Position numbers and translations under genes: made by a program. Positions 4,636 to 14,064 of a DNA stretch of 64,000 nt are shown here, piece by piece. This DNA comes from Betaproteobacteria bacterium (lineage in GTDB: Bacteria; Pseudomonadota; Gammaproteobacteria; Burkholderiales; SG8-39). The first letter of the stretch is position 1. Every line of letters starts with the position of its first letter. Where the stretch lies: contig VBCA01000003.1 of NCBI GenBank assembly GCA_005881575.1, positions 62,001 to 126,000 of the forward strand. Reading direction: 5' to 3'. The notes beneath the pieces are model-generated. The model saw only the letters and a list, made by a program, of their open reading frames with translations, was not told the DNA's origin and searched no databases.

Positions 4636-5111
4636 ACGCACGCCGGCGCCTTCTCGCCGCGCTCCTCGCCCTGCTTGCGTTGCCCCGGCGAGTGCTCGCG
4701 CAGCCGAGCGTCAATCCCGCGCCGGGAATCGATGCGCGCACGCTCAGCACGCCTCAGGGGACGCTGCAAGCTATTCTCAAGGGAACCGAAATGCGCAGGG
4801 GCCGCGTGCGTCTCGAACTGCCTGCGATCGGCGAGAACGGACATTCGGTACCGATGACCGTGCGAGTCGACAGCCCCATGAGCGAGGCCGACTACGTTCG
4901 CCGCATCGATCTCGTTTCGGAGAAAAACCCGGTTGCGCTCATGGCGACCTTCTTCCTCGGTCCGCACATGAGTCGAGCCGAGGTCGAGTCGCGCGTCCGT
5001 CTGAACGGCACCCAGCGGGTGACGGCTCTCGCGCAGCTCTCCGACGGCAGCTTCTGGTTCGATGCCGCGGAAATCGTCGTCAACGAATCCGCCTGCCTGG
5101 ACGGAGGCTGA
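4632..5111 (+). CDS. soxY: SoxY-like sulfur carrier protein with altered C-terminus
   Basis: Periplasmic sulfur-carrier-type protein, 159 residues from a TTG that overlaps the IorB stop. The start comes from the signal peptide ([21 protein letters not shown]) and the TTGA overlap. Residues 75-150 read as a SoxY Ig-like domain, with [34 protein letters not shown] and [22 protein letters not shown]. Classical SoxY ends in GGCGG, where the cysteine carries the sulfur chain. This protein ends in ESACLDGG, so a single cysteine (C155) is kept but the swinging-arm context is changed. SoxZ follows five bases later. No soxA, soxX, soxB or soxCD is present, so thiosulfate oxidation by the full Sox pathway is not supported here. 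Confidence 0.85.
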
Positions 5112-5116
5112 ACGCG

Positions 5117-5437
5117 ATGACGGCGCGAATCGAGGTTCAGCACGAAGTCCGGCGCGGCGACCCGATCGAGGTGCGCATCGTCATCCAGCATCCGATGGAA
5201 ACCGGGTTTCGCTACGATTCGCTGGGCCGCCAGACGCCGCGCAACGTCATTCACCGCTTCGAGTGCCGCTACGGCGGAGTCGAAGTGTTCCGGGCTTCGA
5301 TGGGCGCCGGAATAGCGGCCAACCCTTACCTGAAATTCTTCGTGCGCGCCGAGCGGTCGGGCGACATCGAATGCCGCTGGGTCGATCAGGAAAACGCCTC
5401 GGGATACGCGAGTGCGCGGGTGACGGTGAACGGATGA
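5117..5437 (+). CDS. soxZ: SoxZ-like sulfur carrier partner protein
   Basis: Partner of the SoxY-like protein, 106 residues. The family features [26 protein letters not shown] and the core [32 protein letters not shown] are easy to recognise. It lacks a signal peptide, as expected, because SoxZ is exported bound to SoxY. The start ATG lies five bases after the soxY stop. It is the last gene of the iorAB-soxYZ unit and converges on the coxG-like gene seven bases further on. The pair probably forms a SoxYZ heterodimer. What it carries in the absence of other Sox proteins is unclear. Confidence 0.9.
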
Positions 5438-8530: not shown

Positions 8531-9523
8531 ATGTCCAGACTCCAGCTTTCCCTCGCCTGCTGGGATTACGACCGCACCCGCGCGCTTGCAGATGGAAGCG
8601 TGCGTCCGGAAGGCATCGATCTCATCTATCACAAGCTCCTTGTCGAGGAGACTTTTTTCAGGATGCTGCGCAACCGCGAGTTCGACGCAGCGGAAATGTC
8701 GCTGTCCTCGTATTGCGTGTCGCTCATGCGGGATGATCCGGCGTTCATCGCGATCCCGGTGTTCCCCTCGCGCTTCTTCCGGCACTCCTGCATTTTCGTT
8801 TCATCGAAGAGCGGCATCGGCGAGCCGCGGGAACTCGCCGGCAAGAGAATCGGGGTGCCGGAGTACCAGATGACCGCGCCGGTGTGGATCCGGGGCATCC
8901 TGCAGGACGAGTACGGCGTCGAACCCGCGGGCTGCGAGTACTGGACCGGAGGCGAGGAAGACCCCGGCCGCGACGAGAAGCTCAAGCTCGACCTGCCCGC
9001 AAAATTCAGGCTGCAGCCCATCGGGCCGAAGCAGACGCTCGCGCAGATGATCGCGGAGGGCGAGATCGACGCCCTGCACACCGCGCGCGCGCCCTCGACC
9101 TTCGCGACTCGCCCCGACGCGGTGAAGCGCCTCTTCGAGAACTACGTCGAAATCGAAAAAGCGTATTACCGCAGGACGAAAATCTTTCCGATCATGCATA
9201 CCGTGGTCATCCGCCGCGAGCTGTACCGCGCCAACCGCTGGATCGCGCAGTCGCTCCACAAGGCGTTCGTGCAGGCGCAGCGAAGGACCTACGAAACCCT
9301 CGCTACCACCATGGCACTGGCCACGATGCTGCCCTGGCAAGTCGCGCATGTCGAGGAGGCCCGCCGGGAGCTGGGCGAAGACTGGTGGCCCTACGGCTTC
9401 GAGCCCAACCGCCACGTGCTGGAAACGTTCCTGCGCTATCACCACGAGCAGGGGCTCTCGAAGAGGCTGCTGAAAGCGGAAGAGCTTCTCGCTCCGGAGA
9501 CGCTCGAGTCCTTCCGGGTGTGA
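8531..9523 (+). CDS. 4,5-dihydroxyphthalate decarboxylase-like (Pht5-type) protein with binding-protein fold
   Basis: Protein of 330 residues that resembles Pht5-type 4,5-dihydroxyphthalate decarboxylase, a family related to periplasmic binding proteins. Visible family features are LSLACWDYDRTRALADGSV at the start, then the middle blocks IPVFPSRFFRHSCIFV and GVPEYQMTAPVWIRGIL, and the late block GFEPNRHVLETFLRYHHEQGL. There is no signal peptide, so it is probably cytoplasmic and may be an enzyme rather than a transport protein. It follows the phthalate-dioxygenase-like gene across the inverted repeat. Together they suggest hydroxylation and then decarboxylation of an aromatic acid. A sensing or binding role remains possible. 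Confidence 0.75.
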   Translation: MSRLQLSLACWDYDRTRALADGSVRPEGIDLIYHKLLVEETFFRMLRNREFDAAEMSLSSYCVSLMRDDPAFIAIPVFPSRFFRHSCIFVSSKSGIGEPRELAGKRIGVPEYQMTAPVWIRGILQDEYGVEPAGCEYWTGGEEDPGRDEKLKLDLPAKFRLQPIGPKQTLAQMIAEGEIDALHTARAPSTFATRPDAVKRLFENYVEIEKAYYRRTKIFPIMHTVVIRRELYRANRWIAQSLHKAFVQAQRRTYETLATTMALATMLPWQVAHVEEARRELGEDWWPYGFEPNRHVLETFLRYHHEQGLSKRLLKAEELLAPETLESFRV

Positions 9524-9572
9524 TTCTGACCCGCGCCATGGTGCCAAATGTTGCCTTGTTCCACGGGCGTCG

Positions 9573-9588
9573 TGGCACATCTCTTGCT
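9573..9588 (+). promoter_or_regulatory. Sigma-54 (-24/-12) promoter
   Basis: The sequence TGGCACATCTCTTGCT matches the RpoN consensus TGGCAC-N5-TTGCW at every conserved position, with GG at 9574-9575 and GC at 9586-9587 spaced ten bases apart. It lies about 100 bases upstream of the chosen start of the GGDEF-EAL gene and points towards it. Transcription from it needs sigma-54 and an enhancer-binding protein; neither gene lies in the window. Confidence 0.75.
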
Positions 9589-9686
9589 GCTACAGCACGC
9601 GGAGCGACCCAACAACCATCCAAATGCACGAAATATCCTACGCTCAGGCGGCAAAGGCGCATGATGCGCCTGCGGTGAGAGGACCC

Positions 9687-11882
9687 ATGCTCTCGACGGA
9701 AGAAGACTCAGGCGAAGCCGGCTTTCGCTCTTTCCTGTCGCGCTGGCGGACCCTTGGCCGAAGCAGCTCGCCTGCCGGTTCGACGCTCAACGACCCTCGC
9801 GACGTCAACGTCGGTTTGCGGCGGCGCGTCGCGGTGATCTCCGTGCTCTTTCTCTGCGCGGTCGGTGGAGCGACCTGGTACCTCGTGAACCTCGGACAGC
9901 AGCGGCTCATCGAGATCAAGGCCCTCGACGTGGCCGAGGTCGTCGCGCGACTTTCCACCAGTTCGCGCTCCGTCTACGCTGAGCGCGTCGTGAACAAGCT
10001 GCAACGCGACAGGATCGGCTACGCATCGGAAACCTACTTGCACGAACCTGGGAACGTGCCGCTGCCCGCCCAGTTCCTCAAGTTCGTGGGCGAGCACGCG
10101 AGCAAGGACAACGGGGGCCTTTACCACTACCGCCCGTTGAGCAAATGGAATCTGGCGCATAACCAGGGACTGGCCGATTCGTTCCAGCGCTGGGCCTGGC
10201 AACAGCTCGAAGCCCAGGACCGCGCCGAACCTGAAGGCCCGATCGACTGGAAGCCGGTCTGGCGGATCGAGACTCTCAACGGAGTCAACACGCTGCGCTA
10301 CATGCGCGCCGACCCCGCCTCGAGCACGACCTGCGTCGAGTGCCACAACCGGCTCGAGCAACGCCCGGAAACCGTTGCGATGCGGGTGGCGGACGGCATC
10401 TCGACCGGGAAAATGTGGAAGCTCCACCAGCTGATGGGCGCGCTCGAGATCAACATTCCGCTCGATCGCGTCGAAGCGCGCGCAGAGGAGCACAACCGCC
10501 TCACCTTCATGGTCATGCTGGGGCTGTTGTTGTCGGGCATGCTGTGCATCGGATTCCTCGTCATTGCCGACGTGGCGCGCGCACGCACCCTGACGCGGCA
10601 ACTCGCCTGGCGGGCGAGCCACGACCCTCTCACCGGGCTCCTGAACCGCAGCCAGTTCGAGCACAGCCTCGGCTATCTGCTCAGCCTCGCCAAAAGGGAG
10701 GACAGCACGCACGCCATCATGTACCTCGATCTGGATCAGTTCAAGGTCGTGAACGACACCTGCGGGCACATGGCCGGCGACAGCCTGCTGCTCCAGCTCG
10801 GGGCGACGCTCAAGGCCAACATCCGCGGGACGGATACTCTCGCGCGCCTCGGCGGCGATGAATTCGGCGTACTCCTCATGCAGTGCAACGAAAGCAAGGC
10901 GTTTGAAATCGCCGAGAAGCTGCGCCAGGCAGTCACCGACTTCCGTTTCGTGTGGAACCAGAAAGTCTTCGAGATCGGCGTGAGCATCGGAGTGGTCGTC
11001 ATCAGCAGGGAAAGCGCAAACACCGGTGAGCTGATGAGCGCAGCCGATCTCGCGTGCTACGCCGCAAAGGAGGCGGGAGGCAACAGCGTTCACATCCTGA
11101 AGCCGAGCGATTCCGAAGTTTCCCGCCGACGCGGCGACATGGAGTGGGCCAGCCGGATCACGAGCGCGCTGCAGGAGAACAGAATGCACCTGATGATCCA
11201 GCCCGCCAAGGCGCTGCGCGGCAATCTGGCGATAAGCGAGTATCAGGAAGTGCTGCTGCGCATGAGCGACGAGAGCGGCAAGCAGGTTCCCACCGATGTG
11301 CTCATCAGCGCGGCGGAGCGCTACAACCTGATGCCGAGCAAGCTCGACCGCTGGGTGGTGCAAACCGCGTGCCGTCTCGTGTCCGAGGGCAAGATCGCCG
11401 CGGATCCGCGACGCATCGTCGCGATCAACCTGTCCGGATCCTCGCTCAGCGACGAGGCCTTCCTCAAGTTCGTACACCAGCAGATCACCTCGTTCCGCAT
11501 CGAGCCCACCGCGATGTGCTTCGAGGTAACCGAGACCGCGGCTATCCGCAATCTCTCGAAAGCGATACATTTCCTGAAGAGCCTGAAGAGCATCGGCTGC
11601 CGCTTCGCTCTGGACGACTTCGGCTCCGGGCTGTGCTCCTTCGCCTATCTCAAGTCGCTGCCCGTCGACTTCCTCAAGATCGACGGCGCGTTCGTGCGCA
11701 ATCTTGTCGGCAATCCCTTCGACCGCGCCATGGTCGATTCGATCGCCAAGATCGGGCGGGTGCTGGGTATTCCGACGATCGCCGAATGGGTGGAGAACGA
11801 CGAGACCCTGCGCGAGCTGACGCTTCTCGGCATCGACTACGCTCAAGGGTACGGCGTCGCCGATCCGCGTCGGGTCGGTTGA
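9687..11882 (+). CDS. Heme-c sensor (DUF3365) diguanylate cyclase/phosphodiesterase, GGDEF-EAL
   Basis: Membrane-bound c-di-GMP enzyme, 731 residues from the ATG at 9687, which has a GAGAGG ribosome site. The track start at 9624 lacks one. A first helix is at about residues 47-68. A periplasmic DUF3365/Tll0287-like domain follows with the heme-c motif CVECH (about 216-220), then a second helix at about 272-297. The GGDEF domain is intact (LGGDEFG, about 389-393) with an RGTD inhibitory site upstream. In the EAL domain the signature reads EVL, while DDFGSG is kept; AEWVEN and YAQGY are slightly divergent. Both activities are possible. The CxxCH heme would be attached by the Ccm system encoded later in the window. 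A sigma-54 promoter precedes it. Confidence 0.92.
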   Translation: MLSTEEDSGEAGFRSFLSRWRTLGRSSSPAGSTLNDPRDVNVGLRRRVAVISVLFLCAVGGATWYLVNLGQQRLIEIKALDVAEVVARLSTSSRSVYAERVVNKLQRDRIGYASETYLHEPGNVPLPAQFLKFVGEHASKDNGGLYHYRPLSKWNLAHNQGLADSFQRWAWQQLEAQDRAEPEGPIDWKPVWRIETLNGVNTLRYMRADPASSTTCVECHNRLEQRPETVAMRVADGISTGKMWKLHQLMGALEINIPLDRVEARAEEHNRLTFMVMLGLLLSGMLCIGFLVIADVARARTLTRQLAWRASHDPLTGLLNRSQFEHSLGYLLSLAKREDSTHAIMYLDLDQFKVVNDTCGHMAGDSLLLQLGATLKANIRGTDTLARLGGDEFGVLLMQCNESKAFEIAEKLRQAVTDFRFVWNQKVFEIGVSIGVVVISRESANTGELMSAADLACYAAKEAGGNSVHILKPSDSEVSRRRGDMEWASRITSALQENRMHLMIQPAKALRGNLAISEYQEVLLRMSDESGKQVPTDVLISAAERYNLMPSKLDRWVVQTACRLVSEGKIAADPRRIVAINLSGSSLSDEAFLKFVHQQITSFRIEPTAMCFEVTETAAIRNLSKAIHFLKSLKSIGCRFALDDFGSGLCSFAYLKSLPVDFLKIDGAFVRNLVGNPFDRAMVDSIAKIGRVLGIPTIAEWVENDETLRELTLLGIDYAQGYGVADPRRVG

Positions 11883-12186: not shown

Positions 12187-14064
12187 ATGACCTGGTTACG
12201 AAGTTTCGTGAAAGGACGCTCTTTCCTTCGGCTGCTCACCACCTTCACCTTGGGCGCGGCACTGGCCCTTGGCCTGTACGCCTGCAAGAACGCGACCGAT
12301 GAAGAAGGCGTGGTCGCGATCGGCCTGACCGATGCGCCGGGTGACTTCCTCACCTACACGGTCGATGTCACCTCCCTCACGCTAACCAAGGCCGACGACA
12401 CGAGCGTCCAGACTCTGCCGCAGAGAACGCGCGTGGACTTCGCCCGGTCTGTGGACCTGACCGAGTTCGTAAGGGCGGTCACGATTCCCGCGGGCAGCTA
12501 CGTCAGCGCGACGCTCAACGTCGATTACACCAACGCCGACATCCGCGTCGATGACGGCACCGGGACTCCCGTGGCAGTGCCGCTCGCCAACATCCGCGAC
12601 ACCCAGAACAGGCAGGTCACGACCTTGCCGATGAAGGTGACGCTCGACAACGCGCGGCAGTTGGTGATCGCGCCGCTGGTGTCGTCGCTGCTCGATCTGG
12701 ATTTCAATCTCGCCGCCTCGAATCTGGTGGACATGAGCGGTCCGGCAGGCCCAGTCGTGACCGTCAACCCGCTGCTAGTGGCTGACGTCAATCCGGACGC
12801 GCCCAAGCCGCACAGGATTCGGGGGCCGCTCGACGCGGTCGACACGCAGGCGGGCAGCTTCACTCTCATTCTGCGTCCGTTCAATCTGCTCCAGGGCGAT
12901 CACGGTCGCGTGACCTTCCTCACCGACAGCAATACCGCTTTCGAGATCAACCAGACGACCTTCCAGGGCAGTGCCGGCCTCACCGCGCTCTCCCAGCAAC
13001 CGCGATTCACCGCCACGGTGGCGGTGGGCACGCTCGATCTCACGACTCGCCGATTCATCGCGACCGAGGTCCTCGCGGGATCGAGCGTTCCTTTCGGCAC
13101 CAGCGACGTCCTGACCGGCAACGTCATTTCCCGCAGCAGCAGCACAACGTTCGTGGTGAAAGGCGCGGAACTCGTGCGGAGCAACGGTACGCTCATCTTC
13201 AGGGACACGGTGACCGTGACTGTGGATAGCGGGACGACGAAGGTGATCAAACAGGGCACGATCGGCGCTCTCGGGATCATCCCGACTAGCAACATCTCGG
13301 TCGGACAGCGCGTGACAGTGCTCGGGAACCTGACAAACACTACGATCGGGTCCACGACCCTAGACGCGAGCCGCGGTCTGGTGCGCCTGCTCGTCACGCA
13401 GCTGAACGGCAGCGTCAACAGCGTGGTGGGCAACACCGTCGCGATGACTCTCGCGAGGATCGACGGCCGGCCGATCGGTCTGTTCAATTTTAGCGGAACA
13501 GGGTCGACCGGCAACGATGCCAATCCGAATTCGTACCAGGTGGCGACCGGTACGCTCGATCTGACCGGCATCGGGCCCAACACGCCCCTCAAAGTGCGCG
13601 GCTTCGTCCGGCCTTTCGGCCAAGCGACCGCCACCGACGATTTCGACGCGATTACGCTGATCGACGTGACCAACGCGCCGGCGACCCTGGTCGTAGGCTG
13701 GCCGTTGCTCGAAGCGGCGCCGTTCAGCAGCCTTACAACAAACGGCATGACCGTCAACCTGGCGAACGCCGGTTTGCTGCACGACGTCTTCCGAGGTGGT
13801 GTGGATACACGACTAGCGTTGAGCGATGCCCCGATCGTGAATGCGGCGAATCCGGCTCGCGGCCTGTTCGTCATCGGCACAAACGGGACCGTGCAAGCTG
13901 AGCGGGAAAGCCGGGTCTACACACAGCTCGGCAACTACCAGGCGGCGCTGCAGGCGAACCTGGCGGCGGGACTCAAGGCGCGCAGCTTCGTCGCCTCCGG
14001 CGGAACCTATCTCGATGGCCCGAAGACGCTCACGGCCAATCTGATGGCGACGGCGCTGCAGTAG
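12187..14064 (+). CDS. DUF4382-containing lipoprotein
   Basis: Large envelope lipoprotein, 625 residues from the ATG at 12187, which has the ribosome site TTAGAGGAGATACGCAC. The longer track start at 12103 is rejected because the lipoprotein signal begins at MTWLRSF. The lipobox is LYAC. The mature N-terminal part (VVAIGLTDAPGDFLTYTVDV and following) fits the DUF4382 fold, a beta-sandwich found in secreted or outer-membrane proteins. The rest contains repeated beta-rich segments resembling DUF5666-type modules, low in charge and rich in threonine, valine and asparagine. No enzymatic motif is seen. It is isolated between the GGDEF-EAL gene and a convergent deacetylase. The function is unknown. 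Confidence 0.8.
   Translation: MTWLRSFVKGRSFLRLLTTFTLGAALALGLYACKNATDEEGVVAIGLTDAPGDFLTYTVDVTSLTLTKADDTSVQTLPQRTRVDFARSVDLTEFVRAVTIPAGSYVSATLNVDYTNADIRVDDGTGTPVAVPLANIRDTQNRQVTTLPMKVTLDNARQLVIAPLVSSLLDLDFNLAASNLVDMSGPAGPVVTVNPLLVADVNPDAPKPHRIRGPLDAVDTQAGSFTLILRPFNLLQGDHGRVTFLTDSNTAFEINQTTFQGSAGLTALSQQPRFTATVAVGTLDLTTRRFIATEVLAGSSVPFGTSDVLTGNVISRSSSTTFVVKGAELVRSNGTLIFRDTVTVTVDSGTTKVIKQGTIGALGIIPTSNISVGQRVTVLGNLTNTTIGSTTLDASRGLVRLLVTQLNGSVNSVVGNTVAMTLARIDGRPIGLFNFSGTGSTGNDANPNSYQVATGTLDLTGIGPNTPLKVRGFVRPFGQATATDDFDAITLIDVTNAPATLVVGWPLLEAAPFSSLTTNGMTVNLANAGLLHDVFRGGVDTRLALSDAPIVNAANPARGLFVIGTNGTVQAERESRVYTQLGNYQAALQANLAAGLKARSFVASGGTYLDGPKTLTANLMATALQ

Follow-up and report, generated by a model that had tools for sequence, protein, structure and literature searches.

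Results

The window, by which we mean the whole 64-kb stretch of DNA that was analysed, contains a gene for a predicted Tll0287 (sCache_heme)-GGDEF-EAL c-di-GMP enzyme of 731 aa (9687–11882, +; likely start at ATG 9687), and upstream of it a co-directional gene (8531–9523, +) without a Pfam or NCBIfam family. Between the two, in intergenic DNA and on the same strand as the c-di-GMP gene, lies TGGCACATCTCTTGCT (9573–9588, +), a putative sigma-54 -24/-12 promoter element whose GG (9574–9575) and GC (9586–9587) stand 10 bases apart inside the consensus TGGCAC-N5-TTGCW. With the usual spacing from the C of the GC at -12 (C9587), transcription would begin (+1) at 9599 (+), in agreement with the start near 9599 given in the preliminary description, and would produce a 5′ leader of ~88 nt (9599–9686, +). 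Right after the c-di-GMP gene is a gene (12208–14064) whose product carries DUF4382 near its N terminus together with a lipoprotein-like signal. The window also encodes SoxY- and SoxZ-like thiosulfate carrier proteins (4692–5108 and 5117–5437) that adjoin a molybdenum-hydroxylase-like gene; the best model for the SoxY-like protein was 'SoxY-related AACIE arm protein', with a score below that model's cut-off.

We then examined the domains of the enzyme, which had been described as the product of a heme-c GGDEF-EAL gene, and both Pfam and the motifs bear this out. A Tll0287-like (DUF3365) sensor domain (9909–10460, +; PF11845, 2.1e-13; 51.3 bits, cut-off 24.1) is placed between two predicted membrane helices, as read by eye from the sequence, and contains the heme-c attachment motif CVECH (10332–10346, +), in which C216, C219 and H220 are invariant in 5 homologues. 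By the PF11845 match and the CXXCH motif, this is a predicted sCache_heme sensor. It is followed by a GGDEF domain (10614–11084, +; PF00990, 1.4e-43) with an intact GGDEF motif and an RGTD I-site (RxxD) five residues before it, and by an EAL domain (11154–11867, +; PF00563, 6.5e-55) in which the EAL signature reads EVL and the other catalytic motifs are present, the motifs in both domains having been read from the sequence. With catalytic motifs in both output domains, the protein is predicted to be a GGDEF-EAL c-di-GMP enzyme. A single-sequence search for a solved homologue of the sensor returned none.

The Tll0287/DUF3365 domain has been renamed sCache_heme in a 2026 preprint (PMC12889525), in which a signalling-associated member from P. 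azotoformans is reported to behave as an NO sensor, binding NO tightly and forming no stable complex with oxygen, and one stand-alone member to show redox-like behaviour (PMC12889525). The enzyme shares with the DUF3365/Tll0287 sensors fused to GGDEF/EAL in that work (PMC12889525) the same domain, the CXXCH motif, a membrane anchor and a GGDEF-EAL output, but Pfam finds no HAMP domain in it and its response to NO is a prediction. Since its architecture, a sensor fused to an output domain, groups it with the signalling-associated member, NO sensing is likely to apply here in preference to redox sensing, and the redox role first suggested for the protein becomes the less likely one by this analogy. 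A denitrification context in the form of nirK was sought and none was found.

To place the start codon, we compared the region with the orthologous locus of a genome of the same genus (G005; contig L047/L115), whose protein is 95% identical. Differences between the two genomes fall on codon positions 1/2/3 in the proportion 17/16/82 within the first 1.9 kb from 9687, while those within 9624–9686 are distributed 5/4/2, unlike coding DNA. Because of this pattern and of a Shine-Dalgarno sequence, GAGAGG, just before ATG 9687, we took ATG 9687 as the likely start codon and rejected the first in-frame ATG at 9624. The preliminary description had put the element just upstream of the gene; its intergenic location and shared orientation hold, but the likely start lies at 9687, behind a leader of ~88 nt, and not at 9624. 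An Rfam search of the leader gave no RNA family above its gathering score. The only riboswitch-like candidate, a match to narK, was rejected as sub-threshold (14.4 versus 43.2 bits), and a hairpin at 9655–9671, a palindrome in the window, was set aside because it is broken in G005.

The element itself had been reported as an exact -24/-12 match, and we found zero mismatches to TGGCAC-N5-TTGCW and no second exact match in the window. Scored with a matrix built from the 24 Salmonella sigma-54 sites listed in PMC3844500 (training-site scores 15.1–23.4), TGGCACATCTCTTGCT reached 19.18, in the middle of the training range and the highest score in the window, ahead of runners-up at 15.2 and 14.7. 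The 15.2 site is intergenic and on the reverse strand (22242, -; TGGGATGAATTTTTCT). By chance, scores of this size are expected ~0.03 times per 64 kb, ~1.5 times per genome and 0.17 times in the genome's intergenic DNA. Across the 3.81-Mb genome there are 6 instances of the exact consensus versus 4 of a reversed control pattern, and 61 of the one-mismatch consensus versus 115 of the reversed control. Since the reversed control is about as frequent genome-wide, a perfect consensus alone is weak evidence, and we rejected it as proof of a promoter; the case for a promoter rests on position and conservation and not on the consensus match.

As for position, intergenic DNA holds 23 of 59 near-consensus sites, while ~89% of the DNA is coding, a fraction taken from the window with a simple codon-usage gene caller. 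Among sites with a matrix score of at least 16, 11 of 12 were intergenic in the regions fetched for a near-consensus match, a biased sample in which the intergenic excess is still clear. We looked for a sigma-70-like promoter in 9300–9900 and for an intrinsic terminator between the upstream gene and the c-di-GMP gene, and found neither.

The Salmonella glnK sigma-54 promoter TGGCACATCCTTTGCA (PMC3844500) has the same GG-N10-GC core, TGGCAC and TTGCW as TGGCACATCTCTTGCT. Like known sigma-54 promoters (PMC3844500), TGGCACATCTCTTGCT precedes a gene in a genome with rpoN and activators; in contrast to those promoters, it is predicted from sequence, and none of the NtrC-, GlrR- and NifA-type patterns sought upstream was found.

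We next asked how the element is conserved. The orthologous site in G005, TGGCATGTCTCTTGCT, retains GG, GC and TTGCT, has the same matrix score as the target (19.18; next best in the 10-kb contig, 8.0) and is identical to TGGCACATCTCTTGCT at 14 of 16 bases, compared with 40 of 60 (67%) in the flanks. Under neutral drift at the divergence of the flanks, the chance of retaining such a score would be ~1% (P about 0.01). The same template positions are retained between the two genomes at 17 of 148 intergenic offsets, so the conservation counts only modestly when taken alone, and other constraints act on part of the leader. G005 is the one informative orthologue for the site, the sequence of G003 consisting of Ns across it. 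A homologue in G002 (53% identical) has no good sigma-54 site, its best being CGGCACAAATCGTGCG (L117:1655), which shows GG-N10-GC but scores 7.6 and was not counted as conservation, and the more distant homologues in G242 and G253 likewise have no good sigma-54 site upstream. As far as the sequences are readable, the predicted promoter is common to close relatives only, and would be recent or local.

The genome encodes rpoN and seven strong sigma-54 activators. One is NtrC, which exceeds the curated cut-off of TIGR01818; a GlrR-like regulator falls below the GlrR cut-off (606.8 versus 763), and five of the seven are claimed by no curated NCBIfam model. NtrC-type sites have the consensus GCAC-N7-GTGC and GlrR-type sites YGTCG-N8-CGACR. 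Two promoters served as controls for NtrC, those of nirC (L111) and of a porin-like gene immediately followed by a P-II (glnK-type) gene (L094), each with a -24/-12 element and a perfect GCAC-N7-GTGC that starts 93 nt (nirC, -93) or 109 nt (porin-glnK, -109) before it. In the 300 bp upstream of the target, the best NtrC-type match has 2 mismatches, and we rejected NtrC as the activator. Because the target is without the NtrC-type sites present at the control promoters, the nitrogen input proposed earlier is unsupported.

Four other sigma-54-like promoters (L005:1501, L070:1501, L091:1467 (+) and L114:1537 (-); G000 C51, C15, C53 and C82) look like a small GlrR-type regulon. Each has two near-perfect YGTCG-N8-CGACR sites, the outer one near -150 (range -146 to -151) and the inner one near -82 (range -81 to -83), counted from the -24 element; these have 0–1 mismatch, compared with 3–5 at other sigma-54-like sites. 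One of the four promoters is directly after the glrR-like gene, and the set includes a bactofilin-like protein gene and a small secreted protein gene adjoining fibronectin-like sequence; a genome-wide pattern for such promoters proved too loose to be useful. Upstream of the target, the best paired GlrR-type sites have 4 and 3 mismatches versus 0–1 in the four members, and GlrR was rejected for want of paired sites. A NifA-type pattern was also sought upstream of the target, where an activator site would be expected at 70–150 bp, and not found. By these searches, an activator other than NtrC or GlrR is needed for the predicted promoter. Any activator site would be housed in the 3′ end of the upstream gene, where most differences to G005 are at third codon positions. 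A palindrome there, GCTGGAAACGTTCCTGC at -156, has a counterpart in G005, GCTGGAAACATTCCTGC at -172, but since the upstream region codes for protein, conserved palindromes carry no weight, and it was rejected as an activator site.

A small secreted protein of ~71 aa ending in MACCEAQ is encoded in two copies that are 73% identical (L061:1667–1882 and L065; G000 C1:148221–148433 and C4:49268–49486), each preceded by a sigma-54-like site, TGGCATYGGTCTTGCT, and by a similar, long leader. The L061 copy has a palindrome, TGTCAGGTCACTGACA, just upstream, the 16-mer of L065 recurs before a response-regulator gene (L090), and G005 carries a 93%-identical copy of the protein (C142:22120–22338).

Discussion

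We consider it probable, at roughly three in four, that 9573–9588 works as a sigma-54 promoter and serves one gene, 9687–11882. The score, the location, the conservation and the presence of rpoN and activators together give good sequence support to the RpoN control originally proposed. In such a promoter, E-sigma54 would wait at the -24/-12 element in a closed complex. An activator, reaching it by looping or from a site upstream in the end of gene 8531–9523, would then hydrolyse ATP and open the complex, and RNA would be made from near 9599. The gene would encode a membrane-bound GGDEF-EAL enzyme, its c-di-GMP output adjusted by the periplasmic heme-c Cache domain and NO being the most likely signal. 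The enzyme would make or break c-di-GMP; its transcription, start site, activator, ligand and net direction are what we infer here.

The main rival is a consensus that arose by chance in the short intergenic DNA, in which case the gene would owe its expression to read-through or to a sigma-70 promoter that went unrecognised. The exact consensus is not enriched genome-wide, ~1.5 such scores arise by chance per genome, no activator site of the types sought is recognised upstream, the G002 homologue is without a good site, and, as no intrinsic terminator was found ahead of the gene, transcripts of the upstream genes could run on into it. Set against this are the top score in the window, the intergenic position on the right strand, the equal score kept in G005 and the failure to find a sigma-70-like site in 9300–9900, and we judge a chance match unlikely.

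Two further readings accept that sigma-54 acts at the element. As a sub-case of the working promoter, it could answer to NtrC, so that nitrogen limitation raises the enzyme. NtrC is encoded, and NtrC-type sites accompany the same -24/-12 element at nirC and porin-glnK, but with no GCAC-N7-GTGC of fewer than 2 mismatches within 300 bp, where both controls are perfect, we regard this as improbable, somewhat more so than a chance match. Less probable still, and in our view very unlikely, is that the element does bind the sigma-54 holoenzyme but serves chiefly as a roadblock or as the source of a short leader RNA, and not to drive the enzyme gene. Sigma-54 binding sites distant from gene starts are common (PMC3844500) and the 88-nt leader has a conserved stretch; against it, no RNA family exceeds its threshold and the hairpin is not kept in G005.

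Returning to the working promoter, a fuller but tentative reading, to which we give less than even odds, has two layers: how much of the periplasmic enzyme is made would depend on a sigma-54 activator that is neither NtrC nor GlrR, and NO, sensed by the enzyme, would control its activity. If so, one signal would govern the synthesis of the enzyme and NO its activity. A c-di-GMP enzyme under sigma-54 would fit a theme known from other bacteria, in which sigma-54 controls surface and biofilm genes (PMC3162934), although the organism, sensor and activator differ. Promoters and sensors of these types have both been described before, and the gain is local. If the promoter is real, it would bring a c-di-GMP enzyme with a periplasmic heme-c sensor into the sigma-54 network of an uncultured betaproteobacterial lineage from soil and would offer a concrete promoter on which to seek the matching activator.
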